Positions 7,628-34,987 of a stretch of 64,000 bases of DNA are shown here, piece by piece. The notes under the pieces were generated by a model. That model was not told where the DNA came from. It saw only the letters and a list, made by a program, of their open reading frames with translations, and ran no database searches. The position numbers and the translations under genes are program-made. Each line of letters begins with the position of its first letter. Positions within the stretch are counted from its first letter, which is position 1. This DNA comes from Roseburia hominis (lineage in GTDB: Bacteria; Bacillota; Clostridia; Lachnospirales; Lachnospiraceae), in the NCBI GenBank assembly GCA_040702975.1, contig CP159990.1, positions 3,348,001 through 3,412,000 of the forward strand, written 5' to 3'.

Positions 7628-7654
7628 GCAGATAATGGATAAAGCCTACAGTTT

Positions 7655-7715
7655 CCTCCCCCTTTCGCCTTTGCCATTGCGATTTTCTCCAGATTCCCTC
7701 CGCCTGCTGCCGGCC
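7655..7715 (-). pseudogene. Short duplicate fragment of a resolvase gene
   Basis: This 60-bp stretch repeats part of the resolvase relic at about 7930-7975. The minus strand reads RQQAEGI, then an insertion of about 12 bases, then a track ending KG, compared with KQRQAEGIAVAKAKG in the neighbour. It is either a second decayed resolvase or a partial duplication. Confidence 0.45.
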
Positions 7716-7732
7716 ACTCTCCTATATTTTTG

Positions 7733-8123
7733 TCACTTCGCCATCGTAGTATAACAATTCTTTGTTTCCTCTCTTTCCAGTATTTGTTCTCTGCACCGCC
7801 TATAAAATGTCGTATGACTCATGTTCAGCGCACTCGCCGCCTTGCGCGACGAGATTTCCCCCTGCTCCCACATTTCAAAATATTTTCTGAAATTATGAGG
7901 AATTTCTTTTTTCTGACAACCAAATCTTACCCCTTTCGCCTTCGCCACTGCGATTCCCTCCGCCTGCCGCTGCTTTATGATACTGTGGACGCTTAAAATT
8001 CTTCCCCGACATCTGATCCATATAAATATTTTTTCTCGGAATGTCATACTCCTGCAATGCAATACATTGCCGTTCCGGATTCTGTTCCTTTGTTGACACA
8101 CGTATATAACCATATCGTTTCAT
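7733..8123 (-). pseudogene. Serine recombinase (resolvase/invertase), internally deleted and frameshifted
   Basis: The start at ATG 8123, with AGGAGG upstream, encodes MKRYGYIRVSTKEQNPERQ, the N-terminal catalytic strand of a small serine recombinase with its nucleophile Ser. The frame continues to DQMSGKNFKRPQY and is then lost. In another frame the C-terminal part reads IKQRQAEGIAVAKAKGVRFG followed by a Hin-type DNA-binding end (ISSRKAASALNMSHTTFYRR). About 75-80 residues of the catalytic core between them are missing compared with intact family members. It cannot make an active enzyme and marks a former mobile element beside the aSec locus. Confidence 0.85.
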
Positions 8124-8174
8124 CCGTATCGCCTCCTACATATCTAAAAATAAACAATTTTAATTATATAATAG

Positions 8175-8215
8175 AAAAAACAGACCATACCAGATATTCT
8201 AACCTGATATGGTCT
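8175..8215 (-). terminator. Strong intrinsic terminator of the aSec operon
   Basis: On the minus strand AGACCATATCAG and CTGGTATGGTCT pair (12 bases, one mismatch) around a 10-base loop. The stem is followed directly by G then TTTTTT. It lies about 75 bases beyond the last gtfB stop codon and closes the locus. Confidence 0.85.
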
Positions 8216-8288
8216 ATATTTTCTGAATCCCCATATGTTTTCAAAGCATTACAGCGTTATTATCTTCCCTTAATAATCATAGCCGGGA

Positions 8289-9662: not shown

Positions 9663-11113
9663 TTCTTCTTTACCTCCTCTGTCAGATACCCATTTGCCTT
9701 TTCATAAGAATGCCGGCGAAATGCTTCTATATCCGCTTCTGTGAACAGACGGACAATTCCCCGTGCCAGTGCTTTTACATCCCCATACGGAACTTTGTAT
9801 CCATTCTCTCCTTCATCAACAAAAACCTGTGCTCCATAACGGATATCATAGCTTACAATAGGGAGGCCTGAACCTACCGCTTCCAACAGAGTGACTCCAA
9901 ATGTTTCCACAAAAGATGCGGATGCATATGCATCATATGTCTGATATATCTCATCCAACTTCTGAAAACCACAGAGGTGCACATATTCACTGCACTGCCG
10001 CCTTTCAATCAGCCCTTGCAATTTCGTCATTTCAGCACCCTCACCATAAATATCCAGTGACAGATCAGGAACGCTCTCCTTAGCCATCACAACCGCCTCT
10101 ATCAGCTGATCCATATTTTTCTCCGGCGCAAGGCGTCCGACGGAAATAAGAGAATGTTTCCGCCTGCCGCCGGCTTTCGGAACCTTTAACCCGTCCAGCC
10201 CTACCACCGGAATTGTAAGTATCTCCGGCCTGACCCCTTTATACTGCTGGAACTGCTGCCTGAGAAGATTGCTCTGTGCTTCTGTAGAAGTAACATAAAA
10301 GCTGATTTTTTCAGGATGCGAAAACGCATATTCATAAAAGCCATACCACAAGACATGATCCGCATCACTGTCCAGGTAATGATCCGCGTGGATAACAAAA
10401 CCAACCCGCGCCGGAAATGCATTCTGTATAAAGGCGGCACGGTCAATCATTCCCGGCTCACCGTCAATAAGGACAACATCGTCTTCTGTCAGCTTCAGGC
10501 AGGACATCATATAGCCCACCAGTTCTTCCCGGGAATAGAGAACTCTGTCTGAAAATTTATATAACACAGAATCATCATCCAATATTTCTTCATACGCCAC
10601 GGTTCCATCTTCATTGTAGAATCTTCTCTGGTATAAGTGCGCCCGATGTTCAAGGGGCGCATAATATTCCGAATAAATGCGGCAGTAAGTATAATAATCC
10701 TTTCTGACCAGACACCCATTCGAAACGATTTCTACCCTGTGGACAAGGTCCTCTGAGCCATCCGCCAGATGCACCACATAATAGATGCCCATTGCCGGAA
10801 AAGTGTAATTTACCACGTTACCTTCTCTGGAAACAGAATAATCACACCCGTCAAAAGTATCCTCCAATTGTTCCAGAGTATATGTGACAGGAGATAATTT
10901 GCAGTCTGTAAAAAAACCATACAGCCATATGACCTCAGAATCCAGAAAACCTAAAAACTCTGTTTCATGCTGGATATTATTTTCCGGGAAGGTAGTTGCA
11001 AAAACAAATCTGGCTTCCAGGCCAAGTTCCCGCAAAAGCTTTGCTCTGTAAGCCTGTCCGGATTCTACGCCGCCTTTTAACCAATAATAAAAGTGATGGA
11101 AATTGTAAATCAC
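9641..11113 (-). CDS. gtfA: Accessory Sec O-GlcNAc transferase GtfA (copy 2)
   Basis: A 490-residue GT-B glycosyltransferase (GT4) that adds GlcNAc to serine/threonine of the SRRP in the cytoplasm. The start is GTG at 11113, with AGGAGG seven bases upstream, giving the family opening (M)IYNFHHFYYWLKGGVESGQAYRAK. The middle holds the GtfA add-on domain (YTYCRIYSEYYAPLEHRAHLYQRRFYNEDG). The C-terminal Rossmann domain has LISVGRLAPEKNMDQLI and the EX7E motif in VETFGVTLLEAVGSG. It is followed by gtfB with overlap. This is one of three gtfA genes in the operon. Confidence 0.93.
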   Translation of the reverse strand: MIYNFHHFYYWLKGGVESGQAYRAKLLRELGLEARFVFATTFPENNIQHETEFLGFLDSEVIWLYGFFTDCKLSPVTYTLEQLEDTFDGCDYSVSREGNVVNYTFPAMGIYYVVHLADGSEDLVHRVEIVSNGCLVRKDYYTYCRIYSEYYAPLEHRAHLYQRRFYNEDGTVAYEEILDDDSVLYKFSDRVLYSREELVGYMMSCLKLTEDDVVLIDGEPGMIDRAAFIQNAFPARVGFVIHADHYLDSDADHVLWYGFYEYAFSHPEKISFYVTSTEAQSNLLRQQFQQYKGVRPEILTIPVVGLDGLKVPKAGGRRKHSLISVGRLAPEKNMDQLIEAVVMAKESVPDLSLDIYGEGAEMTKLQGLIERRQCSEYVHLCGFQKLDEIYQTYDAYASASFVETFGVTLLEAVGSGLPIVSYDIRYGAQVFVDEGENGYKVPYGDVKALARGIVRLFTEADIEAFRRHSYEKANGYLTEEVKKKWEALLG

Positions 11114-11164
11114 TTCGGTTCCTCCTCTTAATGCCGTTCTGCGCTCTATACTGACGAGCAAAAA

Positions 11165-11916
11165 TTAATTCAGTAGTTTTTCCCATTTTTCTCTTATAAT
11201 TTCAGTTGAAAAATTTTTTGCGATTTCATAAGAGACACGATGAAATTCCTCTAATCTTTCTTCATCCTCAAAGATTTCAACAATCCTTTCTGCCATACCA
11301 TCTATTAATTTGTTCTCATCAACATCAATACCAACATGATTATAGTCTACCAAATACCCATTTTGACCAGGTCGTACGAACAAACGATTGCCATATTTTA
11401 CATCCAGACCAATTACCGCAGCACCAGACCCTATCGCTTCCATTACAGATAAACCCAATGTCTCCATTGTTGATGCCGCAATAAATACTTCGTAGTCTCT
11501 GTAGATTTCCGTAACATCCATATGGCCCTTAAAACAGATATAATCCTGCGCATGATTCTCACATACAATATTCTGTAAAAAATAAATATAGTCGTTTTTA
11601 CCACTTCCATATATGTCGAGTAAAATAGACGGATTAATCTCATGTGCCTTTACTACGCTTCTTATAATCCAATCCACTTTCTTTTGAGGATTAAGACGTG
11701 AAACCGACACTAAAGAATATGGCTTTCTTTTCCCTGCCGGATACCGTAGATGCCCAATTCCCCCTGCCGGTATCACTTCGACATTTGGAACATGACATTC
11801 ATATTCTTGCAGTTTTTCTATCAATTCATCCTTTTGTTCCTGTGTTGATACTACCATCGTATCAATTATTTTTGAATATTTAAACCAATAATAATATTGC
11901 CAATTTAAATACAATG
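11165..11916 (-). pseudogene. gtfA: gtfA copy 3, 3' fragment (split by transposon)
   Basis: The C-terminal half of a third GtfA, carrying the sugar-nucleotide-binding Rossmann domain (SLVSVSRLNPQKKVDWII) and EX7E in METLGLSVMEAIGSG. The 5' half lies at 15477-16261, beyond a 3,560-bp insertion. Removing the element and one copy of the 7-bp target repeat joins 785 and 745 bases to exactly 510 codons in one frame. That equals normal GtfA length (509 residues plus stop) and shows that a complete gene was interrupted. The fragment lacks the N-terminal acceptor region and should be inactive alone. Confidence 0.92.
11910..11916. repeat. Target-site duplication, left copy
   Basis: TACAATG directly precedes the TGT end of the transposon. 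The identical heptamer follows the other end at 15477-15483. Confidence 0.85.
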
Positions 11917-12116
11917 TGTTGGACGGCAAATTGAAGGAGACATAAACGGCGAATTATTTTTCTGATTTTTATCCCGTTGACTGCGCAGTGCAACCTGCAA
12001 ATGCATTCTTCTATCAAAAACGCGGCACGCTGTTGGCAACAGGGAGACTGCTCTGAAATACAAAGAGCTGTGGAATCCATTGTGGGATCCACAGCCCATG
12101 TAAAATTCGTAATCTT

Positions 12117-19887: not shown

Positions 19888-22224
19888 CTACGGAAGCAGT
19901 ATATGAATCCTCCCCGCCTCATCCACAAACACACTGCTAAGCAGCACATTCCGAATCGCATTTATTTTCACTGTCTTCTCCATTTTCCCAAAAGACTCAA
20001 AAGCCTCATTCTGGTACTCTAATAACGGATTCCTCTGTGCGGTAGCCCTTCCGGACACCACCGCCTGAAGCTGTTGAATATAATCCATCTGTTCCACCCA
20101 TGCATTATCAACGGCACTCAAGATAACAATACGCATAAACTCATTCATGCGCTGCCTGTTCCCCAGCTTCTCCTCCTGCGCTCTTAACCCTTGCTCAACC
20201 TTCCTTATAAGACACTCTTCGATGACGTCATGATCATCCAGCGGAATATCCGCAATATCATCATCCAGGCGGTAGGAAATATTATCCAGAATATACCGGT
20301 TAAGCGAGTAAATATCGACCGGCATCTCCGCATCCAGAAAGTCCCTTATATTCTCCCTCGCCGTCTCCAATACCTTTTCTATCGGCACGTCATCCCCGGC
20401 AAGGAGATGATCCCTGGTCGTATAAATCAGCGCCCTCTGCTTTTGCACGACCTTATCATAATCCGTAGAACGTTTCCGCCCTATAGTCGCAAATTCCGTT
20501 TCCAGTGACTGGGCTTTGTTAATCACTTTTTTCAGCTTACACCTGCCAATGCGCTTCTTACCCTCCAGATATTTATCGAGGTTTGACGGTCCGTTGCCTT
20601 CCACGACCCCATCCTCCAAAGACACGAGGAAACGGCTTGTGCCCACATCCCCCTGTCTTCCGGCGCGGCCTCTCACCTGTCTTTCCATCCTGGTATTGGC
20701 CATCCGGCCTATTCCGAGCACCGCAAGCCCGCCAAGCTCCTCGACGCCTTCTCCAAGCTTAATATCAGTGCCTCGCCCCGCCATCGACGTCGCGACAGTC
20801 ACCGCACCCTTCTGCCCGGCTTCTTTGATAATCTGGGCTTCCCACGCCGCATTATTCGCATTCAATACATTATGCGGAATCTCCACCTTCAACAGGCTTT
20901 CCGATATCAGCTCCGTGTCCACTATGGAAGATGCCACAACCAGAATCGGCCGGCCCGTTTCATGGAGCTCCGATATCATACGTACCGCCGCTTCAAGCTG
21001 CCTGTCCGAATCTCTGAAATACAAATCCCGCAGATCCTTTCTCCTCATCGGACGGTTGGGCGGTATGACCAGAACCTTCACGCCATACACATCCCTCAGC
21101 TCTTCGGCCGCATCTGACAGCGTACCGCTCATCCCTGCCATCTTCGGAAACATCAAAAATAAATTCTGGAACGTAATCGCGGCAACAGAACGACTTTCCT
21201 GAGAAGGCTTAAAGCCCTCTTTCACTTCGATCGCCTGATGCTGCCCTCCGCGAAGCTTCACGCCCCGCATCATACGTCCGGATTCCCCATCCAGAAGCAC
21301 AGCCTCTCCGTCAGGAGACACAACATAATCCTTGCCTTCCTCAAGCAATACATGAGCTCTGAGCGCCAGGATCACATGTCGGTTGATCTCAAAATATTCT
21401 CTGCTGTAAAAATTATCAATTTGGAAAAATGTCTCAGCATACTGCACTCCCTTGTCTGTAAGCCATACCTTTCCCTCTTCCTGTTCATAGTCCACATCCT
21501 CCTGAAGCGTGGTGACAAAAAAATCTGCCATCTCATACAGATTGGACTGCACTCTGGGAGAGGCAGAAATGACAAGAGGCATCTGTGCGCTGTCCAAAAG
21601 GACAGAATCCGCCTCATCAATAATCACATAGTAAAATTCCCGCAGAAACCGGTCGCTTGCTTTTGTGACCAGATTGTCCAACAAATAATCAAAACCCAGC
21701 GTTCCATGGGTCGTATATACAATATCCGCGGAATAAATCTCCTTTTTTTCCGCATTTGAAAAGCCCTCGCCCCCACTTTCACAGACGCCTGCCGCCACAG
21801 ACAGCCCCATGAAACGGTATACCTGCCCCATCTCCTGCGCATCTCTGGCTGCAAGGTAATCGTTCACTGTTACCAATATGGTGCTTTTCCCCGTCAGAGC
21901 ATTCAGGTACAGGGGCATGGTCGCTGCCAGCGTTTTCCCTTCGCCGGTATTCATCTCCGCAAGGTATCCCTTGTGAAGAGCAATACCGCCCAGAACCTGT
22001 ACATCAAATGGCGCCATTCCCAGAATCCTGTAATCGGCCTCACATACCGCCGCAAATGCTTCCGGCAGGATATCATCCAGCGTCTCCCCGCGAGCCAATC
22101 TCTCCTTAAACTCCACGGTCAGATGCGCCAGCTCTTCATCCGAAAGCTCAGCCATATATTCTCCGCATCTTCTTACCTGACGCAGAAGCTTATTCAGTTG
22201 CCTCAGTTTTCTTCTCTGTTTCAT
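19888..22224 (-). CDS. secA2: Accessory Sec translocase ATPase SecA2
   Basis: A 778-residue motor ATPase that drives the glycosylated SRRP through the SecY2 channel. Walker A is MNTGEGKTLAAT (residues 91-102), the DEAD motif is VIIDEADSVLL near 195-205, and the second nucleotide domain carries TSMAGRGTDIKLG and QVRGRAGRQGDVG. It is shorter than housekeeping SecA because the C-terminal zinc linker is absent, typical of the aSec paralogue. The start overlaps asp3 by 35 bases. It is co-transcribed with asp1-3 and secY2, which separates it from general secA. Confidence 0.95.
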   Translation of the reverse strand: MKQRRKLRQLNKLLRQVRRCGEYMAELSDEELAHLTVEFKERLARGETLDDILPEAFAAVCEADYRILGMAPFDVQVLGGIALHKGYLAEMNTGEGKTLAATMPLYLNALTGKSTILVTVNDYLAARDAQEMGQVYRFMGLSVAAGVCESGGEGFSNAEKKEIYSADIVYTTHGTLGFDYLLDNLVTKASDRFLREFYYVIIDEADSVLLDSAQMPLVISASPRVQSNLYEMADFFVTTLQEDVDYEQEEGKVWLTDKGVQYAETFFQIDNFYSREYFEINRHVILALRAHVLLEEGKDYVVSPDGEAVLLDGESGRMMRGVKLRGGQHQAIEVKEGFKPSQESRSVAAITFQNLFLMFPKMAGMSGTLSDAAEELRDVYGVKVLVIPPNRPMRRKDLRDLYFRDSDRQLEAAVRMISELHETGRPILVVASSIVDTELISESLLKVEIPHNVLNANNAAWEAQIIKEAGQKGAVTVATSMAGRGTDIKLGEGVEELGGLAVLGIGRMANTRMERQVRGRAGRQGDVGTSRFLVSLEDGVVEGNGPSNLDKYLEGKKRIGRCKLKKVINKAQSLETEFATIGRKRSTDYDKVVQKQRALIYTTRDHLLAGDDVPIEKVLETARENIRDFLDAEMPVDIYSLNRYILDNISYRLDDDIADIPLDDHDVIEECLIRKVEQGLRAQEEKLGNRQRMNEFMRIVILSAVDNAWVEQMDYIQQLQAVVSGRATAQRNPLLEYQNEAFESFGKMEKTVKINAIRNVLLSSVFVDEAGRIHILLP

Positions 22225-22657
22225 CTATAATTTCCCATATCTCAATCGAATGAAAGTAAAACTCTGTCATCCCGCCATTAACCAGCTGCATCTTATAGCT
22301 ATATGTTTTTAAAGGGCACCTGAAATTCATAATCCTGTCTCTGACAGCAACAGAACCGACTTCCTCCCCGTATTTGTCAAAAAACACCAGCCTTACAAGC
22401 CATGCTTCCCCTTTCGGACAGTCAATATCCACACGGATCCGATACCTGCCCTCCCCGTCAATCATAGGCAGTACAGGCTCAATCCTCTGTGCTTGGTAAT
22501 TCGTTTTAGAATACCACTGCTTGATCACTGTCCCCGGCGGCATCAGCTTGTTTCTGAACACAACTTCATCCTTTCTATTGTAGGATATTTCCGACCCATA
22601 AAGATAAGTGTCCGAAGAATATTCACTCCAGAAAATCGTCCATCTTTCACCCGTCAT
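22190..22657 (-). CDS. asp3: Accessory Sec protein Asp3
   Basis: A 155-residue protein. Asp3 forms a complex with Asp1 and Asp2 that binds SecA2 and the SRRP acceptor. The beta-rich sequence (GSEISYNRKDEVVFRNKLMPPGTVIKQW split around residue 22-49; YRIRVDIDCPKGEAWLVRLVFFDKYGEE) fits the carbohydrate-binding-like Asp3 fold. It overlaps asp2 by four bases (ATGA) and secA2 by 35, so the three are translationally coupled. Identification rests on sequence pattern plus the invariant gene order. Confidence 0.88.
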   Translation of the reverse strand: MTGERWTIFWSEYSSDTYLYGSEISYNRKDEVVFRNKLMPPGTVIKQWYSKTNYQAQRIEPVLPMIDGEGRYRIRVDIDCPKGEAWLVRLVFFDKYGEEVGSVAVRDRIMNFRCPLKTYSYKMQLVNGGMTEFYFHSIEIWEIIDETEKKTEATE

Positions 22658-24162
22658 TTTTTCTTTATCCCTCTCCCGAAATCCTCGCGCAAGACCTTCC
22701 CATATTGGTCAACGAACCAATTTACAATTGCGCTCGTATTATCATTATGCCTGCCATGACTTCCCTTTCCATATACCTGCACGCCGCTTGAGCTAAGGTG
22801 GGAAAGCAGTTTGTTATATGCATCCGAATCATAATCATCCTCTATCATATAAGATACGATGAATTTCGTCCTTCCCCAGTCAGAAGCATCAAATTTATCC
22901 CAAAACCTGCTATTTAACCTTTCTACTGCATCCGTATCCAGAGAGCCGCACACATACCGCAATACATCCAAAGATGTGGCAAAGCCTCCCGGACGGAGAT
23001 GCTTCTCATTTGCGGCCACATTTCCTATGCTGGCCAGAGGTTTGCCCAGAATCAATGCATGCGGCCTGATATCACACCCATAATATAAAGCACCGTAGGT
23101 TCCCATGGAAAGACCAGATAGTATAACCTGATCCGAAGTAAACCCCAACTCTTCCATATATTTTTCAATAATAGAAATAATCCGTCTCTCATATCTTCGC
23201 GACCCCATATAAAAACTCCCGCCCTCAAGCCGCGGCTCGGATAATAGCAGAAAAGGACAGTCCATGTTTTTCATCAGGTGGTAACCTTCAAAACTCTCCT
23301 GTGTCTTATATCCGGCAAAATATACATTGAGAGGTGGTTCCATATTGCATGGATCAAAATAATAGAAAAGCTCCTCTCGCCCAGACGATACATAACGCTT
23401 CCCTCCTGGTAGGAAATGCCCGCAACCTCCTCTGGAGAATCTCTTATGCAACGCAATAATCTGAAGTTTCCCTTTTCCTCTGGCGCGCAGTGAAAACGAC
23501 AGACTACTGTCCCCATTCTTTGCCTCAATCCGCATCATCCGGCTTAACTGTGTTTCATCAAACTCACACTGTCCCAGCATCTGATCAACGCTACTATCAA
23601 CAAACTGATTCACTATAAGGGACAGCTCGACTTCCGGTTCCTTATGATATTCCAGCCACAGATCAACAACCTGCCCCTGAGACACGGGACTGTTATACCT
23701 CCAAAGGGCAATCTGGCAGAAATCGTCGCCAAACTCTCCCTGCAGTTCCACACTATAGTTGCCATGCCACTTCACAGTGCCAGAAAAGTCACGGGAAATA
23801 GCTACATCTCTTAAGCTGAATTTTTCTCCATAAGGCTTTGAGAAAAAATATCTCGTTTCCTCTAATAAAAACCGCTGCATATCTGAATCCGCAATACGCT
23901 TCGCTCTTTTTGATCTGCAAAGCCAGGCTGCCGGTCCACGCATCCTTACGCTTTCCGTAAGAAACAATGTATACGCCTTCACTGCCTGGTATAACAGCTC
24001 TATCTCTTCCTCGCTGGGAGCCTTGTCCAAAATACACATATCATAAGGCTTTTCCGGAAGCTCTGTAAAAACCCTTGTATGCTCTAAATTGACCTCTTCC
24101 GGGAGTTCGTAAACTTCATTCCAGTCTCTGTCCCCTATTTGCAAAATATGAATCTTATCCAA
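22654..24162 (-). CDS. asp2: Accessory Sec protein Asp2 (alpha/beta-hydrolase type O-acetyltransferase)
   Basis: A 502-residue protein. In streptococci Asp2 is both an export factor and an O-acetyltransferase that acetylates GlcNAc on the SRRP. The catalytic nucleophile elbow GLSMGTYGALYYG is near residues 351-363. An acidic residue follows in MIEDDYDSDAY and a histidine in GKGSHGRHND near the C-terminus, so the Ser-Asp/Glu-His set appears intact. The N-terminal 270 residues are beta-rich. The start overlaps asp1 by eight bases. Because the active site is retained, acetylation of the glycans is likely here too. Confidence 0.92.
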   Translation of the reverse strand: MDKIHILQIGDRDWNEVYELPEEVNLEHTRVFTELPEKPYDMCILDKAPSEEEIELLYQAVKAYTLFLTESVRMRGPAAWLCRSKRAKRIADSDMQRFLLEETRYFFSKPYGEKFSLRDVAISRDFSGTVKWHGNYSVELQGEFGDDFCQIALWRYNSPVSQGQVVDLWLEYHKEPEVELSLIVNQFVDSSVDQMLGQCEFDETQLSRMMRIEAKNGDSSLSFSLRARGKGKLQIIALHKRFSRGGCGHFLPGGKRYVSSGREELFYYFDPCNMEPPLNVYFAGYKTQESFEGYHLMKNMDCPFLLLSEPRLEGGSFYMGSRRYERRIISIIEKYMEELGFTSDQVILSGLSMGTYGALYYGCDIRPHALILGKPLASIGNVAANEKHLRPGGFATSLDVLRYVCGSLDTDAVERLNSRFWDKFDASDWGRTKFIVSYMIEDDYDSDAYNKLLSHLSSSGVQVYGKGSHGRHNDNTSAIVNWFVDQYGKVLREDFGRGIKKK

Positions 24163-25750
24163 CGAAATCCAGCACCTCTTTCCATGTTTTCAACAGCTTA
24201 TCTGTGGTGTAATTTCTTCCAAGCTCATAGGAATAGACCCTCGCCTCATTCCAATGTGTCAACCCAACCAGATAATAGTCTAAGGCATCCGGCAGCTGTT
24301 CTATCTCTTCTAATATAATTCCATTTCTGCCGCTTTCTACAAACTCCGTCTTTGTACAGACAATCTGCGGTATTCCGAGACTGAGCGCTATGATTTGAGG
24401 GAACATCTCCGGATTTTTCCTCACATCGACAATCAGCCTTTGCTGCCGCATACAGGTACTTACATCCAGCTCGCTCACACATTGCTCGGCGAAAAACTTT
24501 TGAGTAATCTTTTCTTCCTCATGCAGATTATTCTCTGAGATATTTTCTGCATCCGTCTCCACAGCAAGGCCTTCCTCCAGTCCGGCTTCTCTTAATTCCT
24601 CCCGAACCCACTCCAGAAGCTTCTTCCCTCTTCCATACTCTGCCTCCCTGGTGAAGAGATGAACCCTCGCATTCATATTCCGTGAAAGATAGCCCGCCAA
24701 CACCAGTATCAGCTCATGAAAAACGTCCTCCTTCATACCATCCACCGGCACCAATATTTTCTGAACCTTGATCCTGCCGCTTGTCCCGGAATCCGCGCTC
24801 ACATTATAAGGGGAGATAACCGTGGTTTTCTTTGATTCCATACCGGGACAATTTTTGATTCTCTTTTCATTTTCCGCGGAATCCGTAATGATGAAATCTG
24901 CCCTTTTCATCATTTTCCATTGCTCCGGATTTTCCTGTGGCAGATACCGATTTTCATAAAAAGAAAGTATCGTCCTTCTGTCCGCCAGTGCCTCCTGTAA
25001 AAGTCCTGCGTGACGTTCATGCATGGCCGCGCAGAAGATATCCGTATCCGCCGTAAGCTGCAGATAGGACGTCAGAACTTCATAAATGACCTGCTGCATA
25101 TTTCCATATGAAAGCCTGGAAAATCGTTTCGTCCGCTCCTTGTCCCCGCACAGCAGCAAATACTCCTGCCTACGCGGATTGATTTCCACATGGTCGTCCT
25201 CATAAAAGCGCCGGAGCTTCCAATTCCCGTCCCTCATTAAAAACTCCTGATAAATTGGCTTTTCATTCTTATAGAGAACCGTACAGGAAAGAAATCCCCT
25301 GTCGTCATATATGTTGCGGCGGCACAGCATGTTATCCTCATACATATCTACCTGAATCGGATTTCCATCTTCCCCGAATTCTATTTTTGCATACCTTTTC
25401 CCTTTCAGGAAAGCAAGCACCACGAATTGCGAATAGACGAACTCAATCCCTTTGGGCCAATCTATATTGTGAAAAGACAATACATGAGCCTTCTTCCGCC
25501 TGATTTGCTGTATTGCATCGAAGCATGACCAATACGACGCATGGTATACCCCCTGCCGGTGAAGAAAATGCCTGAAGTTCGGTGCAAAGCTAAGAAGCAT
25601 GATCTGATATGGATAAACCCCGCTGCGATGAAAGAGCTGAATCTGCTTTACAGTCTCATCAAATTCCGAGTGCATCCGCCTTGTATGCCAGCTCTGTTCA
25701 TTTTCACACCATTCATTCTGCCGGTACCATGCCGGAATAAAATATAACAT
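24155..25750 (-). CDS. asp1: Accessory Sec protein Asp1
   Basis: A 531-residue GT-B-fold protein that has lost transferase activity in the characterised systems and scaffolds the Asp complex. The opening MLYFIPAWYRQNEWCENEQSW is the family hallmark. The middle has the meander DMYEDNMLCRRNIYDDRGFLSCTVLY resembling the GtfA/B add-on domain. The C-terminal nucleotide-binding domain has a variant region (SLGIPQIVCTKTEFVESGRNG). It lies 15 bases after secY2 and overlaps asp2 downstream. The secY2-asp1-asp2-asp3-secA2 order is canonical. Confidence 0.93.
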   Translation of the reverse strand: MLYFIPAWYRQNEWCENEQSWHTRRMHSEFDETVKQIQLFHRSGVYPYQIMLLSFAPNFRHFLHRQGVYHASYWSCFDAIQQIRRKKAHVLSFHNIDWPKGIEFVYSQFVVLAFLKGKRYAKIEFGEDGNPIQVDMYEDNMLCRRNIYDDRGFLSCTVLYKNEKPIYQEFLMRDGNWKLRRFYEDDHVEINPRRQEYLLLCGDKERTKRFSRLSYGNMQQVIYEVLTSYLQLTADTDIFCAAMHERHAGLLQEALADRRTILSFYENRYLPQENPEQWKMMKRADFIITDSAENEKRIKNCPGMESKKTTVISPYNVSADSGTSGRIKVQKILVPVDGMKEDVFHELILVLAGYLSRNMNARVHLFTREAEYGRGKKLLEWVREELREAGLEEGLAVETDAENISENNLHEEEKITQKFFAEQCVSELDVSTCMRQQRLIVDVRKNPEMFPQIIALSLGIPQIVCTKTEFVESGRNGIILEEIEQLPDALDYYLVGLTHWNEARVYSYELGRNYTTDKLLKTWKEVLDFVG

Positions 25751-25765: not shown

Positions 25766-26962
25766 CTAAAATATGGGATGGTATAAATCATATTTCCGAA
25801 CAGAAACATACTCCCGAATAAAATTGCACCACAAACCGGTCAGCATCATAACTGTTGTCGGAAGCATTACGAGCGTACTGTCAAGACTTCCTCGAAGCTG
25901 CAGAACTAACGGCACCGCAACGCATCCGCCCATGACCGTAGCGCTGAAAATGCTTATGCTCCATATTACTTTCCGCAAATACCGCCTGGTGTCGCGCCCT
26001 GCATGAATACCTACGATACTGTCCCCGCTCTTTAAGAACTGTTCCGTAATATCCTTCGGGTTGACCGTCATGATAGCCAAAAAAATGGTAAGCAGATACA
26101 TACATATGATATATACGCCTATCCCAAGCGGCCGCGCCAAAGATAAATTAGCCTGCCACCAGATAATATCCGGCTGTCCTGGAAACAGCTTCTCCAGCAG
26201 GGAAACCACCAGCTGCGGAAGCATAAATACTACCGTGGAGAACATCATCGGCATTACCCCGGCAGGGTTCAGTTTGACAGCCATATAGTTTTTGTCCGCA
26301 TAGACATTGTGTATCGAAATGCGCTGTACCGGAATCCGGAATTCCGCATTTTCCATGATCATCATGATAAGCATACCTGCGGCGGATATTGCCAGAGGAA
26401 CGATAAGTTCCTGCACCGAATGACCTATTATCGTGGAGCCGATCCGGCTCACAATATTCACCAACCCTATCATCATTCTTCCTCCGATGCCATATCTGCC
26501 GATTCGGTCAGACATCCACCAGATCAACATTGCACCTGTGACCATCTCCATCACAGCTACTTCTCTTACGAAAACGCCCTCAGTTCTAAACTGCAGTCCC
26601 CGCACTAACGAAAAAGCCTGCAGCATAGCTACCACAAAAGTCACCAGAGCGGTAATGCGTCCAAGCTTTCCGGGGGAAACCTTATCCTTTGAAAATGCGT
26701 TAAGGATTGCCATTGCAATCTGTACAAGGAGAGACGATATCATATATGGAAAGATGCCAAGTGCAAAAACAGAAGAACGGTACGCATCTCCGCTGATAGT
26801 CTGTATTAATATTTCCTCTGCAGATATGGTATGGATGGAACGCGCCAGAGTCTCTACCTCATATAAGGGGATGCCTTTTCCCAGTTCATATACAAAAAGA
26901 ATGATGCAGGTATATAAAATTTTGTACTTTATTATGTTTGATTTACTATTGGCCTGTGACAA
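25766..26962 (-). CDS. secY2: Accessory Sec channel protein SecY2
   Basis: A 398-residue membrane protein with about ten predicted spans forming the export channel for the SRRP. Family features are the first span ILYTCIILFVYELGKGIPL, the segment SVFALGIFPYMISSLLVQ (SecY TM2 region), TTVVFMLPQLVVSL and the C-terminal KVIWSISIFSATVMGGCV. It is shorter than housekeeping SecY, as is usual for SecY2. A stable hairpin at 27005-27046 precedes it and separates it from the SRRP gene, possibly tuning expression. No SecE- or SecG-type gene is seen here, unless the small protein at 27056-27217 serves as one. Confidence 0.93.
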   Translation of the reverse strand: MSQANSKSNIIKYKILYTCIILFVYELGKGIPLYEVETLARSIHTISAEEILIQTISGDAYRSSVFALGIFPYMISSLLVQIAMAILNAFSKDKVSPGKLGRITALVTFVVAMLQAFSLVRGLQFRTEGVFVREVAVMEMVTGAMLIWWMSDRIGRYGIGGRMMIGLVNIVSRIGSTIIGHSVQELIVPLAISAAGMLIMMIMENAEFRIPVQRISIHNVYADKNYMAVKLNPAGVMPMMFSTVVFMLPQLVVSLLEKLFPGQPDIIWWQANLSLARPLGIGVYIICMYLLTIFLAIMTVNPKDITEQFLKSGDSIVGIHAGRDTRRYLRKVIWSISIFSATVMGGCVAVPLVLQLRGSLDSTLVMLPTTVMMLTGLWCNFIREYVSVRKYDLYHPIF

Positions 26963-27004: not shown

Positions 27005-27046
27005 AAATTAGTGCCCACCTTATAAGATCAAGATGGCCACTAATTT
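27005..27046 (-). terminator. Intercistronic hairpin between the SRRP unit and secY2
   Basis: AAATTAGTG pairs with CACTAATTT, extended after one mismatch by CCATC with GGTGG, around a 12-base loop. The stem is followed on the minus strand by CTTGT rather than a clean U run. It is therefore more likely a partial terminator or stability element setting the ratio of SRRP to export genes than a full stop. Confidence 0.55.
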
Positions 27047-27055: not shown

Positions 27056-27217
27056 TTATTCACTCACTCTGTCTTCTAATTCTTTCCGTTCTTTTTTTAA
27101 TTTGCGCAGCCTTACGGTAAAGCCGGCAATCACTGCAATGATCACAAGCAACGCCGGAATGTCCCATACGCAAAATCCCAGGCATACATGCTCAAATATC
27201 TGTGCCATCTTATACAT
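27056..27217 (-). CDS. Small single-span membrane protein overlapping the SRRP stop codon
   Basis: A 53-residue protein. ATG at 27217 lies inside the last codons of the SRRP gene (overlap of 8 bases, shifted frame), so translation is probably coupled to the SRRP. An internal ATG at 27208 is an alternative start. The sequence has one membrane span (about residues 18-36: [17 protein letters not shown]) followed by a strongly charged helical tail [18 protein letters not shown]. The SRRP itself ends with a membrane span and a similar charged tail. It could be a membrane partner of the SRRP or a SecE/SecG-like subunit replacing Asp4/Asp5 of streptococci. No homology is claimed. Confidence 0.75.
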
Positions 27218-30200
27218 CTCTCCTCTCGTTATCGGAATCGATCTTTTCTTTCAATTCCCGAATCTTCTGTTTCTGCTTAGACGTATCACCGATGTAGAAG
27301 ATAGCCAGGCCTCCGGCAATGAGCAATTCTATAATATGGAGAATACAATGTTTTACACTCTCCTTGAGATCCATATTTGCCAATGGCGTTTCTTCATCTT
27401 CAATCGGAGCCAGTTCCTGTACATCCTCTTCATTTTCTGTATCCACAACCGCAAGCGGTACTTCCTCATCTTCTATTACCTCTACCGGTGTCGCAGGCGT
27501 CGGCGTCGGAGCCGGTGTTGCCGCTGCTGCTACAGGTGCCGCCACAGGCGCTGGCACAGGCGTTACCGTAGGTGTCGTAGTACCCGCATCATCGTCCGGT
27601 GTTACGACCGCCTGGCTTTCGCTGGTCGATGTGCTTGCTGATGCACTTTCGCTCTCGCTATCGCTGGTTGAAGCACTGTCGCTTGCAGATGCACTGCCGC
27701 TTGCGGATGCACTGTCACTTGCTGATGCGCTCTCACTTGTGGATGCACTTTCACTTGTCGACGCGCTCTCACTTGCTGAGGTACTCTCGCTCACGCTTGT
27801 CGAGGTGCTTTCACTCGTTGGGGTACTCTCGCTTGCTGACGTGCTTTCGCTTGCACTCGTGCTTTCGCTTGCTGATGTACTCTCACTTGTCGAGGTGCTT
27901 TCACTTGCGCTGGTGCTTTCACTTGCTGATGTACTCTCACTTGCACTGGTACTCTCGCTTGCTGACGTACTCTCACTTGCCGACGTGCTCTCGCTTGCAC
28001 TGGTACTCTCACTTGCACTGGTGTTTTCGCTTGCTGATGTGCTCTCGCTTGCACTCGTGCTTTCACTTGCGGACGTACTCTCGCTTGCTGATGTACTCTC
28101 ACTTGCACTGGTACTCTCACTTGCGGACGTGCTTTCACTTGCTGATATACTCTCGCTTGCACTGGTGCTCTCACTTGCACTCGTGCTTTCACTTGCGGAC
28201 ATGCTTTCGCTTGCACTGGTGCTCTCGCTCGCCGACGTACTCTCGCTTGCACTGGTACTCTCACTTGCACTCGTACTCTCACTTGCTGATGTACTCTCGC
28301 TTACACTGGTACTTTCACTTGCTGATGTACTCTCACTTACACTGGTACTTTCGCTTGCTGATGTGCTTTCGCTTGCACTGGTACTCTCGCTTGCCGATGT
28401 ACTCTCACTTGCACTCGTACTTTCGCTTACTGATGTGCTTTCGCTTGCACTGGTACTCTCACTTGCTGATGTGCTCTCGCTTGCTGACGTACTCTCGCTT
28501 GCGCTGGTGCTTTCACTTGCTGATGTGCTCTCGCTTGCTGACGTACTCTCGCTTACGCTGGTGCTTTCGCTTGCTGACGTACTCTCACTTGCACTGGTGC
28601 TTTCACTTGCTGACGTGCTCTCGCTTGCACTGGTACTCTCACTTGTACTCGTGCTTTCACTTGCTGATGTGCTCTCGCTTGCTGACGTACTCTCGCTTAC
28701 GCTGGTGCTTTCGCTTGCTGATGTGCTCTCGCTTGCACTGGTGCTCTCACTTGCTGACGTACTTTCGCTTGCACTGGTACTTTCACTTGCTGATGTGCTC
28801 TCGCTTGCACTGGTACTCTCACTTGCCGATGTACTCTCACTTGCACTGGTGCTTTCACTTGCTGATGTGCTCTCGCTTGCACTCGTGCTTTCGCTTGCTG
28901 ACGTACTCTCACTTGCTGATGTGCTCTCGCTTGCACTGGTACTCTCACTTGCCGATGTACTCTCACTTGCTGATGTGCTCTCGCTTGCACTGGTACTTTC
29001 ACTTGCTGATGTGCTCTCGCTCGCCGACGTACTCTCGCTTGCCGATGTACTCTCACTTGCACTGGTGCTTTCACTTGCTGACGTACTTTCGCTCGCACTG
29101 GTACTTTCGCTTGCTGACGTACTTTCGCTTGCACTCGTGCTTTCACTTGCCGACGTACTCTCACTTGCACTCGTGCTTTCACTTGCTGACGTGCTTTCGC
29201 TTGCTGATGTACTCTCGCTTGCCGACGTACTCTCGCTTGCACTCGTGCTTTCACTTGCGCTGGTACTCTCGCTTGCTGATGTGCTCTCGCTTGCACTGGT
29301 ACTTTCACTTGCTGATGTGCTCTCGCTTGCACTGGTGCTTTCACTTGCTGATGTGCTCTCGCTTGCTGACGTACTCTCGCTTACGCTGGTGCTTTCGCTT
29401 GCTGACGTACTTTCGCTCGCACTGGTACTTTCGCTTGCTGACGTACTTTCGCTTGCTGACGTACTTTCGCTTGCACTCGTGCTTTCACTTGCCGACGTAC
29501 TCTCACTTGCACTCGTGCTTTCACTTGCTGACGTGCTTTCGCTTGCTGATGTACTCTCGCTTGCCGACGTACTCTCGCTTGCACTCGTGCTTTCACTTGC
29601 GCTGGTACTCTCGCTTGCTGATGTGCTCTCGCTTGCACTGGTACTTTCACTTGCTGATGTGCTCTCGCTTGCACTGGTACTTTCACTTGCTGATGTGCTC
29701 TCGCTTGCACTGGTGCTTTCACTTGCTGATGTGCTCTCGCTTGCTGACGTACTCTCGCTTACGCTGGTGCTTTCGCTTGCTGACGTACTTTCACTTGCTG
29801 ATGTACTCTCGCTTGCTGACGTACTCTCACTTGCTGATGTGCTCTCGCTTGCACTGGTACTCTCACTTGCTGATGTGCTCTCGCTTGCTGACGTACTCTC
29901 ACTTGCCGACGTACTCTCGCTTGCACTGGTACTTTCACTTGCTGATGTGCTCTCGCTTGCACTCGTGCTCTCGCTTGCACTCGTGCTCTCGCTCGCCGAC
30001 GTACTCTCGCTTGCCGATGTACTCTCACTTGCACTGGTGCTTTCACTTGCTGACGTACTTTCGCTCGCACTGGTACTTTCGCTTGCTGACGTACTTTCGC
30101 TTGCTGACGTACTTTCGCTTGCACTGGTGCTTTCACTTGCCGACGTACTCTCACTTGCACTCGTGCTTTCACTTGCTGACGTGCTTTCACTTGCTGACGT

Positions 30201-32282
30201 GCTTTCGCTTGCCGACGTACTCTCGCTTGCCGACGTACTCTCGCTTGCACTCGTGCTTTCACTTGCGCTGGTACTCTCGCTTGCTGATGTGCTCTCGCTT
30301 GCACTGGTACTTTCACTTGCTGATGTGCTCTCGCTTGCACTCGTGCTTTCGCTTGCTGACGTACTCTCGCTTACGCTGGTGCTTTCGCTTGCTGACGTAC
30401 TTTCACTTGCGCTGGTGCTTTCACTTGCTGATGTACTTTCGCTTGCTGACGTACTCTCGCTTGCACTTGTTGAAGCGCTTTCGCTTGCCGATGTACTCTC
30501 ACTTGCTGATGTGCTCTCGCTTGCACTCGTGCTTTCGCTTGCTGACGTACTCTCACTTGTTGATGTGCTCTCGCTTGCACTGGTACTCTCACTTGCCGAC
30601 GTACTCTCGCTTGCACTGGTACTTTCACTTGCTGATGTGCTCTCGCTTGCACTCGTGCTCTCGCTTGCCGATGTACTCTCACTTGCACTGGCGCTTTCAC
30701 TTGCTGACGTACTTTCGCTTGCACTGGTACTTTCGCTTGCTGACGTACTTTCGCTTGCACTCGTGCTTTCACTTGCCGACGTACTCTCACTTGCACTGGT
30801 GCTTTCACTTGCTGATGTACTCTCGCTTGCCGACGTACTCTCACTTGCACTTGTTGAAGCGCTTTCGCTCGCTGAAGCACTCTTTGCATCCTTAACAATA
30901 TCACTAAAATCAAAGGTCGGATTTCCAGGCACCCACGTATATTTCCATATACCATCCTGACTGATGAGGTTCCATTCCCAATGCCCATATTCTAGTTTAT
31001 CGTCCTTTCTTTGCCATGCATCAGTCGTTTGTTTCATTTCAACTGGTACACGACCAAGAAAAGGAATCCAAACCCATCTTGTAGCCTCCCACTCTGAATC
31101 ACCTTCTACAGGTTGCGTAGTTTCATCCAGTTCTTTCCCATATTCATGTACAATATAATTATAAAGCTCTTGAACTTCCTCAGGTGAAGGTTCAACCGTT
31201 TCTCCATTCTCGTTCGTTGTAGTCAATTCATTTTTGATTGCCTCTCTTAACGCCTCATCTTCTGGTGACCCTTCGTCACCTATCGCTGTCATATTAACAT
31301 TTCCGCCAAGGCTTGAAAGAATAGAATCAAGAATGCTCTCTATATCAGCATTACTGCCAGATTCGCTTCCCTCTTCGCTCTCGTAACTTGTGCCATCATC
31401 AAGTACATGATATATTTTCCCATCCGCATCTTTATAAGTACGGTCGTTAATATCCAATTCATGCACTGCACCATTTTTATCAACATACCATACTTTACCT
31501 TCTTCATCCTGATATGTACGATCCGCTTCTAATGCACGTGTCACACCGCTTTCATCAACATAGCTCAAACTGCCGTCTTCATTTTCGACAACTCTACTAG
31601 TCTTATCAGTTTCAGTTAAATTGTTTTCTTCATCCGTTGACGTATCAACAGAATTATTTATCTCCTCTTCAGCCACCTCAGAGTCCAAAACATCCTCTTC
31701 CAAAGAATTTGTCTCACTGTCACTGGCACTCGCGGAATCTCCACTTGCGCTGACATCCTCGTTACTATTATCAGATTCCGTAAACTCCGACACCTGCCCA
31801 CTTTCAGATGTCATCTCGCTCGCCTCGCCACTCTCAGATGACACCCCGCTCATCTCGTCACTCTCTGACGCCGCTGCGCTCACCTCATCACTCTCGGATG
31901 CCACTCTGCTTGCCTCTTCGCTCTCAGATGCCACCTTGCTTGCCTGTTCGCTTTCCGACGCTGCTGCGCTCGTCTTCACGCTTTCTGATGCTGCCATGCT
32001 CGCCTGTTCACTTTCTGCTGCCGCTACGCTTGCCTGTTCACTCGCCGCAGCATTGTTCACCTGCTCGCTCTCTGAGGTCGTCTCAATAACAATCGAATCA
32101 CCTGCATTCGAATCCTGCTCTGATTCCATCGCATATACAATCTCGCCTTCCTGGAAAAGACCTGCGCCGCCCAATGCCGCCGCTGCCGTAACCAGACTCC
32201 TAGTAAGTTTCTTCTTACCCAATGCTATCACAACCTTTCCAGTCTTGATATTCGACCAAAACAAAAGCTCAGCTTTTGTCAA
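27210..32282 (-). CDS. Giant serine-rich repeat surface glycoprotein (SRRP), aSec substrate
   Basis: 1,690 residues. The N-terminus has a long SRRP-type signal peptide with a degenerate KxYKxGKxW-like segment ([16 protein letters not shown]), a hydrophobic core ([14 protein letters not shown]) and a site near VYA. Next come a short serine-rich region (about 50-180, SEQAS-type units), a non-repeat region (about 190-460) with three imperfect repeats of the DRTYxDxxGKxYxV kind, and about 1,090 residues of SASEST hexapeptides. A Pro/Ala/Thr stretch, an acidic segment with IEDEE repeats, one membrane span near residues 1644-1664 and a charged tail complete it. No LPXTG motif is present, unlike streptococcal SRRPs. 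The start is TTG at 32282 and is uncertain. Confidence 0.92.
27612..30887 (-). repeat. SRR2: about 180 tandem 18-bp units encoding Ser-Ala-Ser-Glu-Ser-Thr
   Basis: A 3.3-kb array of an 18-bp unit encoding SASEST with rare variants (V, T, M or I in place of A or T). The DNA units differ by synonymous changes, mainly at third positions. Blocks of several hundred bases recur nearly unchanged, for example around 29040-29400 and 29390-29760, which points to growth by segmental duplication. The opposite strand is open for 3.6 kb only as a consequence of the repeat. Assembly length should be treated with caution. Confidence 0.92.
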
Positions 32283-32399: not shown

Positions 32400-33644
32400 C
32401 TAGGGCACCGCATGCTTCAGTTCCTGTGTCATATCCGCATAATACCAAAGTGTTCCCTTGCCCTGGCTTTTTACATATGCCCGCTCAATCCGCTCAAATA
32501 TAGAACTGCAGAAATCCTTGTTAGAATGTGCCAGCATTAAAATATAATGCCTGTTCCCATATCTTGTATATGCATCCCCTATCCTCAGTGAATCACCAAT
32601 TACTTTTTTAAGCAATTGCATCTGTTCCTGAAGATCCATCTGTTTCTGGCTGCCCGCCTCTCCCTTCTGGCTCAGTGTCAGGAACATCAACATCGACTCA
32701 AATTGACTCCTGTCTTTTGCCCTTGCTACCAGTCGGCAGTAATCTACAAAGCTCGGATAAATGCAGTAATACGCTCCCTTTACTTCCGTCTCTTCAAACA
32801 TCGCTTTTTTTATTTCGCTCCTCCTCCCCATAAAAGATTTATCCATATCCTTCCATTTATTGATGCCCCCAGGGCTCCTGATATGGTTCCCATCCTTTAA
32901 CTCGAACTTTTCAAAACACTGCTGCATCTCCTCCGCAGGCGAACTGTCCAGCTCACGCATATACAGTTCCACAGCACTGTTATAAATATTCCGCGCTTCC
33001 TCATAGCGATACAGCTCAAGATTACATCGGATCAAACTTGTCTGCCAGTTATCAAAAGGATAGATTGACACTGCCCTGGAATACAGAAGCATCCGGTTTT
33101 TATAATCATTCTTTCTGATATACTCTTTTTCAAGTTCCCGGATTGTCTTGACATACAATTTTTTAAAATAGTTGCTTTTTTGCAAAAACCATGCTTCAGA
33201 CTGATTCTCGGGAAGTATGTCGCCCCGGTACATCTCATTTGCCCTGCTTAGAAGCTCTATCCGCTTTTCTCCCTCCGCGTCTTCCGCCATCCCTATCATT
33301 TCTTCAAACTTCTGCGTATCCAGTTCTATGGGAATCCTGCTTTTAAAACGGCATATTCCTTCCTTTATCTCTATGTATCTTCCCGCAGGAAGCCCGCAAT
33401 CAACAAGCTGTTTCTCTAGGCGATAGATTAGTTTATTCAGGTTTTTATTGCGGTTTACCCTGTCAATTTTTTCATTCCAGCCATAGAAGCAATCTATCAG
33501 TTCATTTTTCGGAATCCCACTCTGCAGGGATAAAAGAAGCATCTGCAAGAGGCGGACTGATTTTGAATTCTCGATTTTTTTCAGCATAACCGCTTTATCA
33601 CCATAATACATAGAAAAGCCGCCAAGCATTTTTACACTCAACAT
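32400..33644 (-). CDS. SARP/BTAD-type transcriptional regulator with degenerate GGDEF-like C-terminus
   Basis: 414 residues. Residues 1-95 form an OmpR-like winged helix with the SARP opening MLSVKMLGGFSMYYGDKAV. About 100-245 is a BTAD helical repeat domain (YSRAVSIYPFDNWQTSLIRCNLELYRYEEARNIY is split around residue 190-225). The last 140 residues resemble a GGDEF domain in layout: RIGDAYTRYGNRHYILML sits where DxxxRxGGDEFxxLL is expected, but the GGDEF signature itself is YGNRH, so cyclase activity is unlikely. It overlaps gtfB by seven bases and lies directly before the SRRP gene. It probably controls the locus; ligand binding by the degenerate domain is inference. Confidence 0.8.
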   Translation of the reverse strand: MLSVKMLGGFSMYYGDKAVMLKKIENSKSVRLLQMLLLSLQSGIPKNELIDCFYGWNEKIDRVNRNKNLNKLIYRLEKQLVDCGLPAGRYIEIKEGICRFKSRIPIELDTQKFEEMIGMAEDAEGEKRIELLSRANEMYRGDILPENQSEAWFLQKSNYFKKLYVKTIRELEKEYIRKNDYKNRMLLYSRAVSIYPFDNWQTSLIRCNLELYRYEEARNIYNSAVELYMRELDSSPAEEMQQCFEKFELKDGNHIRSPGGINKWKDMDKSFMGRRSEIKKAMFEETEVKGAYYCIYPSFVDYCRLVARAKDRSQFESMLMFLTLSQKGEAGSQKQMDLQEQMQLLKKVIGDSLRIGDAYTRYGNRHYILMLAHSNKDFCSSIFERIERAYVKSQGKGTLWYYADMTQELKHAVP

Positions 33645-34987
33645 AATATTTCCTCATATGCTTTCACACACTCTGACATGGCAGCTTCCTGCTGCCTTTT
33701 CACGTATTCATCCATCAAGTCCGTATCCGACAACACCTTTTTCATATCCTCTATCATATGCCCGGCGTTTTCCGGAGCATAAATGGATTCGCCAGCCACA
33801 TAATCTGCATTATGGACGGTCTTGTCAAAGGCGTAAATGAGCTGATTATTCAAAAATGCCCTACGTACTGCCGAAACGATTTCCGTTCCATAGTTAATAT
33901 CCAGATACCAGTCGCATTTTTCAAACAATCTATCCAGAATTTTCATCTTCACGCCCGGGTACAGCGTGACATTATCATAATTTCCCATTGCCAGCAGCTT
34001 TGAAGACATTTCCGTAAGTGCCGCAATAGAAAAATGCATCTGCGGAAGAGCCTCCACAATTTCCCTGCATTTTTCAATCTGATCCGAATTCGTGCAGATC
34101 AGCGCCTCCGCCCTGTGTCTGTTCTTTCTTTTAAAGGGATACAAGAAGCCTTGTTTGCCTACAATACCCGGATCCGCTCCCAGCTCTATCAGTCTCTCGT
34201 AGGAACGCCTTTTCTGCACCAGGATTTTTCCCGCGCGGGGAGCTTCTCCCTTCAGGATTATCCGCATATTACCCGGTATTTCATCTCTGATCGGCTCCTG
34301 CCAGAACAACACATCGCTCTTTTTCGAAGCCATAAGTGCATTTGACACAAAAAACGGGGTCGACAGAGAATTAAAGAAAATTCGTCTCTGATCCAGACCC
34401 TTTTTCTTCAAAAAGTAAGCTGCAAAATCCGTCTTTGTGCGGAAGAATTTTACCTCATCGCCCTCATTTAAAATGATATCGCCGGTAACAAAATTTTCCA
34501 CGATCACTTCCTGCCCGGCGGCTGAAAAATAGGATTTATTCACCTTATGTCCCTTTGCATTGAAGGTGGTTCTGGCCCAGACCGCCCCATAACGATTATA
34601 GTGATCACTGGAGCGGACGACTCCCCTCTCGTCATACCAATCTACGACCTTCACAAGCCGTTTGTGCAAAGGTTCCGCATAAAATATTCTTCCCCTTAAC
34701 CGGTTCAGGTCACGTATCTCTCCGCTGTTGTTCGTACCGCGGATCTGCCAGTAGTCCGGAATCTTGACCTGGTTGAAATATTTCGGCCTTGCCCCATCCC
34801 CCTTAAAATCACCCAGGAAAGAGCCGTACACTGACATAACGCCATCCGGCAGAAAACCATCGTCCTCAATGACCACTGCCGGACACTCATAACCAGCTAT
34901 CTGAAAAGAGTCCAAAAGCGCCTGGCTGTCTGTTGAAAAGTTGTCAAAAAGCAATACTACGTTGTTTTGTTTAGCAAGTCTTTCCAT
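33638..34987 (-). CDS. gtfB: Accessory Sec O-GlcNAc transferase subunit GtfB (copy 1)
   Basis: 449 residues. The co-transferase partner of GtfA. Family blocks are VVIEDDGFLPDGVMSVYGSFLG (about 38-58), PKYFNQVKIPDYW, the beta-meander GVVRSSDHYNRYGAVWARTTF, FFNSLSTPFFVSNALM and CDWYLDINYGTEIVSAVRRAF near residue 365. There is no EX7E motif. The ATG at 34987 follows GGTGGAGAAGAG and overlaps gtfA by 31 bases. It lies upstream of the BTAD regulator and the SRRP, the position expected of the primary pair. Confidence 0.93.
   Translation of the reverse strand: MERLAKQNNVVLLFDNFSTDSQALLDSFQIAGYECPAVVIEDDGFLPDGVMSVYGSFLGDFKGDGARPKYFNQVKIPDYWQIRGTNNSGEIRDLNRLRGRIFYAEPLHKRLVKVVDWYDERGVVRSSDHYNRYGAVWARTTFNAKGHKVNKSYFSAAGQEVIVENFVTGDIILNEGDEVKFFRTKTDFAAYFLKKKGLDQRRIFFNSLSTPFFVSNALMASKKSDVLFWQEPIRDEIPGNMRIILKGEAPRAGKILVQKRRSYERLIELGADPGIVGKQGFLYPFKRKNRHRAEALICTNSDQIEKCREIVEALPQMHFSIAALTEMSSKLLAMGNYDNVTLYPGVKMKILDRLFEKCDWYLDINYGTEIVSAVRRAFLNNQLIYAFDKTVHNADYVAGESIYAPENAGHMIEDMKKVLSDTDLMDEYVKRQQEAAMSECVKAYEEILC

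Follow-up and report, generated by a model that had tools for sequence, protein, structure and literature searches.

The small gene that follows the serine-rich repeat protein (SRRP) gene in an accessory-Sec locus of Roseburia hominis is conserved, and on balance we think that it encodes a single-span membrane protein dedicated to pairing with surface-protein tails of one type, most likely as a part of the membrane anchor. The gene, its conservation, its association with the tail, the orientation signals and the correlated changes in tail and partner are all evident from sequence. A preliminary description of this DNA had proposed a partner for an SRRP that lacks LPXTG, and we found the proposal supported by strict co-occurrence with one tail type and by matched changes in the two, patterns from which we infer the pairing itself.

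The small gene and its neighbours

The window, which is the whole 64,000-nucleotide stretch analysed, carries the following features, all on the minus strand.

27210-32282 (-): SRRP open reading frame, 1690 aa by the first start codon
27213-27422 (-): C-terminal 70 residues of the SRRP, with an acidic EDEETPLA stretch, a KHCILH motif, a span and a K/E-rich helix
27206-27212 (-): stop-start junction TAAGATG, comprising the SRRP stop (27212-27210), one base and the Met4 codon (27208-27206)
27056-27217 (-): small gene, longest open reading frame, 53 codons from an ATG, 53 aa
27056-27208 (-): small single-span protein gene, most likely coding sequence, 50 aa, starting at Met4 by homologue alignment
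27006-27045 (-): hairpin in the interval between the small gene and secY2 (104-nt region, MFE -36.3 kcal/mol, z -6.55)
25766-26962 (-): SecY2 (SecY 2e-50; acc_sec_Y2 6e-70, just below the curated cut-off, 236.1 vs 249.6 bits)
24155-25750 (-): Asp1, over the Pfam and NCBIfam cut-offs
22654-24162 (-): Asp2, over the Pfam and NCBIfam cut-offs
22190-22657 (-): Asp3, over the Pfam and NCBIfam cut-offs
19888-22224 (-): SecA2, over the Pfam and NCBIfam cut-offs

The small gene thus lies between the SRRP gene and secY2 in an accessory-Sec locus that also encodes GtfA. The open reading frame at 33638-34987 had no match in the Pfam scan, and by its position we take it to be GtfB. Between this GtfB-like frame and the SRRP gene a BTAD-domain protein (E 4e-9) is encoded at 32400-33644 (-); a relative with 28% identity was seen near the accessory-Sec genes of another locus (L035), and the protein is possibly a regulator of the accessory-Sec locus.

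The SRRP showed low-complexity, serine-rich matches to the ClfA/Sdr repeat models of NCBIfam, under their cut-offs, and a weak match to NF033073 (E 0.024). No LPXTG-like motif was present before the span of its tail. This tail type is characterised by the lack of LPXTG, a histidine motif where the span begins and a K/E helix after it, and two positions, P13 and H29, are invariant in all 25 rows of the tail alignment (A6). Since the genome has 13 sortase matches, 12 of them over cut-off, lack of a sortase does not explain the absence of LPXTG, and the host has no general need of a substitute anchor.

The preliminary description had the small gene product as a 53-residue single-span protein with a charged C-terminal helix, and this was borne out: the frame at 27056-27217 (-) encodes a single hydrophobic stretch, whose best Kyte-Doolittle mean over 19 residues is 2.47, and a C-terminus rich in K, R and E. 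An AlphaFold2 model gave one helix over residues 3-49 (mean pLDDT 74, pTM 0.37), which says little on partners. The same description had the frame starting 8 bases inside the SRRP gene. Taken from its first ATG, the 53-codon frame does overlap the SRRP gene by 8 nt and is read in a different frame; however, alignment of homologues favours Met4 (27208), 1 nt past the SRRP TAA, as the start, and the distance from the methionine to GFC matches that of the homologues in L150 and L152 only if the window gene starts there. In 13 other homologous loci the distance from SRRP stop to start is -1 to +9 nt, a later Met, or an ATG after a TTG, having been chosen by alignment in five of them (L045, L048, L060, L061 and L064). 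What is conserved is the adjacency of stop and start, and the 8-nt overlap, which depends on Met1, is probably not real.

Homologues at the same place are 41-52 aa long. Finite dS was obtained for seven of ten homologue pairs, two of them with dS above 1.5, and their dN/dS values were 0.03, 0.21, 0.04, 0.07, 0.29, 0.21 and 0.04, the last from outside accessory Sec; the other three pairs, including the sole one with the window gene (dN 0.32), were saturated and gave no ratio. By these measures the 53-codon frame is a real gene under purifying selection. Loss of the frame in close relatives had been named in advance as an outcome against the gene, and what we observed is a conserved frame with ratios of 0.03-0.29. 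A chance open reading frame was rejected on the same ratios and on the conservation at the same place.

Distribution of the tail and the small gene

An Asp1 alignment search of genome contigs gave 98 matches, of which the best 80 were fetched; a contig search by SecY2 alone gave no match. With 12 same-family genomes found by the Asp1 search and the window itself, this amounted to 93 loci, of which 90 have SecY2 (L083, L103 and L114 were dropped for lack of it). Removal of five duplicates (L090, L049, L052, L078 and L107) and of three loci with no upstream sequence (L066, L067 and L079) left 82 non-redundant loci, the near-identical L118 and L119 both being retained. Sorted by the tail encoded before SecY2, the 82 loci, whose fetched part is the best 80 of 98 matches, include 15 of the window type, 28 W-rich, 9 LPXTG-like, 9 with another Ser-rich or PLA tail, and 21 with no adjacent SRRP.

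A small-gene homologue directly follows the SRRP stop in 15 of 15 window-type loci, the window included, and was found in 0 of the 67 loci with other tails or no adjacent SRRP, counts that again refer to the best 80 of 98 matches and in which the tail class was called by a profile partly built from those tails and the small gene by a different profile. A search at the same place next to other SRRP genes, which the preliminary description had suggested, therefore recovered homologues in 14 other non-redundant loci, all with SRRPs of the window's tail type. The small gene was absent from all 28 loci with W-rich tails (e.g. L029, L040, L043, L056, L102 and L116) and from all nine with LPXTG-like tails. 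Because a P-L-A stretch before the span is also found in W-rich and LPXTG-like tails that lack the small gene, this stretch is not the special signal.

Two side observations came from these loci. The W-rich tails represent a second non-LPXTG type of SRRP tail, in which the span starts with WWWWI or WWSWIP and is followed by YDKKNKKG or YRRNKK. One locus (L076) has an unrelated-looking small single-span open reading frame that ends 17 nt before secY2 and measures 73 codons from stop to stop (...MWEELGISGGTAIIVLIALYFIVKYV...); the small-family profile did not match it.

On the Asp1 tree one change suffices for the 15 loci with tail and small gene, with a weak support of 71; in the drawn tree an open fork joins the window and three W-tail rows to the other 14 loci. 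The tree neighbours of the window-type loci have LPXTG-like and W-rich tails. The correlation of tail and small gene inside accessory-Sec loci may thus reflect a single event, of which the simplest reading would be one swap of the SRRP 3' end for a cassette with the tail and the small gene.

Of 61 loci, 47 have a hairpin with dG of -20 kcal/mol or lower within the 160 nt that precede secY2, compared with 20 of 183 control windows inside secY2; in loci with a short gap these 160 nt take in the SRRP end. By tail class they occurred in 14/15 window-type, 24/28 W-rich, 5/9 LPXTG-like and 4/9 other loci. A threshold of -12 kcal/mol was non-discriminating, with 58 of 61 controls passing, and -20 was used instead. 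In the window the SRRP gene and the small gene are both on one side of the hairpin and the export genes on the other, and it is possibly a partial terminator, attenuator or processing site that separates the adhesin from the export genes.

We then turned to genomes of the same family, using a small-family profile (A3) of 14 rows taken from SRRP loci only and a tail profile (A6) of 25 rows whose source loci carry the small gene. Alignments A3 to A6 omit L044, which is near-identical to L030, and the wider small-protein alignment (A5) also omits the members of L191 and L199 and the upstream smA and smB of L156. The small-family profile matched 49 of 397 genomes at E <= 0.01, of which 13 stand out at E <= 3e-9 (the next being 1.3e-5), and the tail profile matched 35 of 397 at E <= 0.001, of which 14 stand out at E <= 1.6e-13 (the next being 4.5e-7); the cut between strong and weak was set at these gaps in the match lists. 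The strong small-gene and tail sets are the same 14 of 397 genomes, differing by profile score in G049 alone, where the small gene scores 1.7e-4 with A3 but adjoins the tail gene, and where a wider profile finds two small open reading frames (5e-12 and 2e-10). Fisher's test for the co-occurrence gave 5e-26, or 2e-23 with G049 counted as tail only, neither corrected for phylogeny. Among the 36 genomes with weaker small-profile matches, genomic context was followed for G049 and a few that were re-found via the tail list. By the strong matches, tail and cognate protein share one phylogenetic profile, with a possible exception (G206) described below.

No Asp1 match was found in 12 of the 14 genomes with tail and small gene, so the link is not to accessory Sec. 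Outside accessory Sec the tail terminates other, mostly large surface proteins; the one scanned in full (L151, 2708 aa) contains Listeria-Bacteroides and InlB B-type repeats and an Ig-like domain. Two small genes lie in tandem in 8 of the 13 non-accessory-Sec loci (L150, L152, L154, L156 with two sets, L158, L160, L191 and L199), one product (smA) typically having G-L-H-x-W-D and the other (smB) G-F-C-x-W-D. A signal peptidase I-like gene is located near the small genes in 6 of the 13 (L150, L151, L152, L153, L156 and L160); it scored E 6e-37 with TIGR02227 in L152, its frame is broken in two in L150, and a 151-codon open reading frame intervenes in L156. Judged by this position, the peptidase may be dedicated to the tail-protein clients. 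None was found in the fetched flanks of the 15 SRRP-type loci, and none inside the window.

Two genomes encode several tail proteins (three in G085 and two in G384), yet each has a single strong small-gene locus, and no small gene was found in the flanks fetched around the extra tails (L192-L195). In G168 the tail gene lies on one contig and the small genes on another. Several tails for a single small-gene locus, together with the split in G168, point to action in trans, and the arrangement suggests that a small protein may serve several tails. The draft genome G378 (L156) encodes two tail proteins in tandem, one smA and one smB for each of them, and a signal peptidase; a sortase search of this draft gave no match.

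Weaker tail matches were viewed as sequence in 16 of the 21 genomes below the cut, and most are W-rich, LPXTG-like or generic spans. In G206 (L197, E 1e-5) a C-F-I-H tail ends a protein of at least 2010 aa encoded at 5971-12000 (-), and the 12 kb fetched around it contained no small-family gene. It is followed by an unrelated-looking open reading frame of about 70 codons at 5739-6065 (-), with a basic N-terminus and, by eye, two spans. This is a possible exception to the pairing, either a tail that has no partner or one that has another. A single-sequence search of eight genomes of the window's genus found only weak matches besides the gene itself (best E 0.002), a search of 381 genomes of the class (same-family ones included) found three weak matches besides the window, all inside longer open reading frames of 167, 264 and 332 aa rather than in a small gene, and tblastn of plasmid records with one homologue (L150 smB) found no match.

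Tail, proposed partner and the competing explanations

The preliminary description had noted a likeness between the small protein and the SRRP C-terminus, and this proved real and fairly specific. In profile comparison the small family matched the window tail type at 94% probability (E 8e-8), compared with 11% (E 3e-3) for W-rich tails and 1% (E 0.05) for LPXTG-like SRRP tails; both helices are K/E-rich, which can inflate such scores, and the three tail types match one another at 94-98%. All 31 small proteins and all 25 tails (56/56 together) have basic residues after the span, so both are predicted to be N-out/C-in.

Matched changes were also observed. In G049, G168 and the second G100 set the tail His is replaced by Y, R or S, and in all three the smB Cys is replaced by D or E, while the first G100 set retains both residues. 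The remaining 28 of 31 tail rows have the His, and 25 of 28 smB rows have Cys or (L158) His. The partner Cys is not absolute, occurring in 24 of the 31 rows of A5 with H in another 6. These matched losses, three cases that may stem from one lineage, are the best sequence hint of a contact.

These observations can be accommodated in the following model. The SRRP, or another surface protein, would end in an out-to-in span followed by a K/E-rich cytosolic helix, and the small protein, which is predicted to be oriented likewise and consists of a span and helix of the same kind, would perhaps be of related origin. Within the membrane the tail would pack laterally against one small partner (smB) or, where smA is present, against two; the cytosolic helices would zip together, and the tail His (C-I-L-H) would face the partner Cys-x-Trp-Asp at the outer membrane surface. 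The packed complex would retain the adhesin in the membrane and would replace a sortase-cleaved LPXTG signal. Physical pairing, an anchoring role and an uncleaved tail are what we infer from the patterns above. More tentatively, and with somewhat less confidence than in a partner role as such, we propose an undescribed anchoring or sorting system for Lachnospiraceae surface proteins, in which one or two single-span proteins (smA and smB, about 50-80 residues), sometimes with their own signal peptidase, would form an intramembrane receptor for a defined tail through the tail His and the partner Cys-x-Trp-Asp (perhaps a metal site), and in which tail and partner gene would move as a cassette between unrelated adhesins, SRRPs included.

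The main rival, which we regard as unlikely though worth weighing, is a sorting or processing complex in which the small protein or proteins, sometimes with a dedicated signal peptidase I, would recognise the tail signal for cutting or for transfer to another anchor, much as sortases and exosortases treat their own signals. Such a complex would agree with the signal peptidase I-like gene that neighbours the small genes in 6 of the 13 non-accessory-Sec loci and with the apparent action in trans on several tails, and the conserved Cys, His, Trp and Asp by the outer face seem to go beyond mere packing residues. However, the peptidase is absent from the window and from the fetched flanks of the 15 SRRP-type loci, domain scans assigned no catalytic domain to the small proteins, and the P-L-A stretch is common to W-rich and LPXTG-like tails that occur without the small gene.

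We give a decidedly low probability to a chaperone or quality-control function, in which the small protein would shield the tail during export and stay outside the final anchor. Its restriction to one tail type and its position right after the client gene, upstream of the hairpin that divides both from the export genes, would agree with this, but the parallel orientation and the matching cytosolic helices would fit a lasting complex better, and the gene accompanies its clients in genomes both with and without Asp1.

The preliminary description had also suggested that the small protein may resemble SecE or SecG and replace Asp4 or Asp5 in the SecY2 translocon; this we rejected on orientation, profiles and distribution, leaving it a very slim chance. 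SecE is oriented N-in/C-out. All 31 small proteins have more K and R after the span than before it, the opposite arrangement, and Pfam SecE and SecG did not match the window protein at E <= 1 or the 31 members at E <= 0.01. With about 50 residues, one hydrophobic stretch and a single-helix model, the small protein does not have the two spans of SecG or Asp5. Its distribution follows the tail and not SecY2, with the small gene in 15 and absent from 67 of the 82 non-redundant SecY2 loci (fetched set, best 80 of 98) and present in 12 genomes lacking an Asp1 match. What speaks for a translocon subunit is the position of the gene directly upstream of secY2 and the single span, as in Asp4: PMC5076819 describes Asp4 as having one span with an amphipathic helix and Asp5 two spans, and places asp4 and asp5 after gtfB in S. 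gordonii. Finally, the likeness to the tail could be that of a non-functional frame or a hitch-hiking remnant of a duplicated tail, but the low dN/dS in seven pairs, the conserved start spacing and the small-gene copies that G168 keeps away from its tail gene make this next to negligible.

Comparison with known systems

No Pfam or NCBIfam family matched the small proteins or the window tail type over the shown cut-off. A Pfam scan of the 31 members of A5 gave weak matches only, including CcmD in 3 of 31 (best E 5e-4), domain scans of the small proteins gave no match to a cysteine transpeptidase or protease domain, and structure relatives sought by sequence gave weak matches only (E >= 0.08). 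A literature search, for which most subscription literature was out of reach, found no paper on the small gene or on the tail pairing. Gram-positive surface proteins that lack LPXTG are often left as 'membrane-anchored by a C-terminal span', and we are not aware of any bacterial surface-protein tail that has a partner of its own with a single span and no enzymatic function. A co-varying partner for one tail type makes the retention of non-LPXTG surface proteins directly testable, the tail/partner pair can be used as a marker for client proteins in gut Lachnospiraceae, and a partner role would explain why genes this short, which annotation easily overlooks, persist.

Among related systems, the W-rich SRRP tails of related Lachnospiraceae are closest in setting, being likewise non-LPXTG, with the same PLA stretch and at the same locus; they differ in their WWWWI or WWSWIP motif and in having the small gene in 0 of 28 non-redundant loci. 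Asp4 and Asp5 of the streptococcal SecY2 translocon (PMC5076819) resemble the small protein in being small membrane proteins encoded with accessory Sec, whereas the small protein is predicted to lie the other way round in the membrane, showed no sequence relation to them, and has a distribution that follows the tail rather than SecY2. The PEP-CTERM/exosortase system (PMC1569441) is similar in that a tail profile is matched by a cognate membrane protein and there are several clients; unlike it, the cognate protein here has about 50-70 residues and one span, with no enzyme domain found. The LPXTG/sortase signal shares with the window tail an acidic or proline stretch, a span and a basic cytosolic end, and a DEDVPLA-like stretch precedes both. 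In contrast to that signal, the window tail type has C-I-L-H or H-x3-H in place of LPXTG and a longer K/E helix, and its partner gene encodes a dedicated single-span protein, not a sortase.
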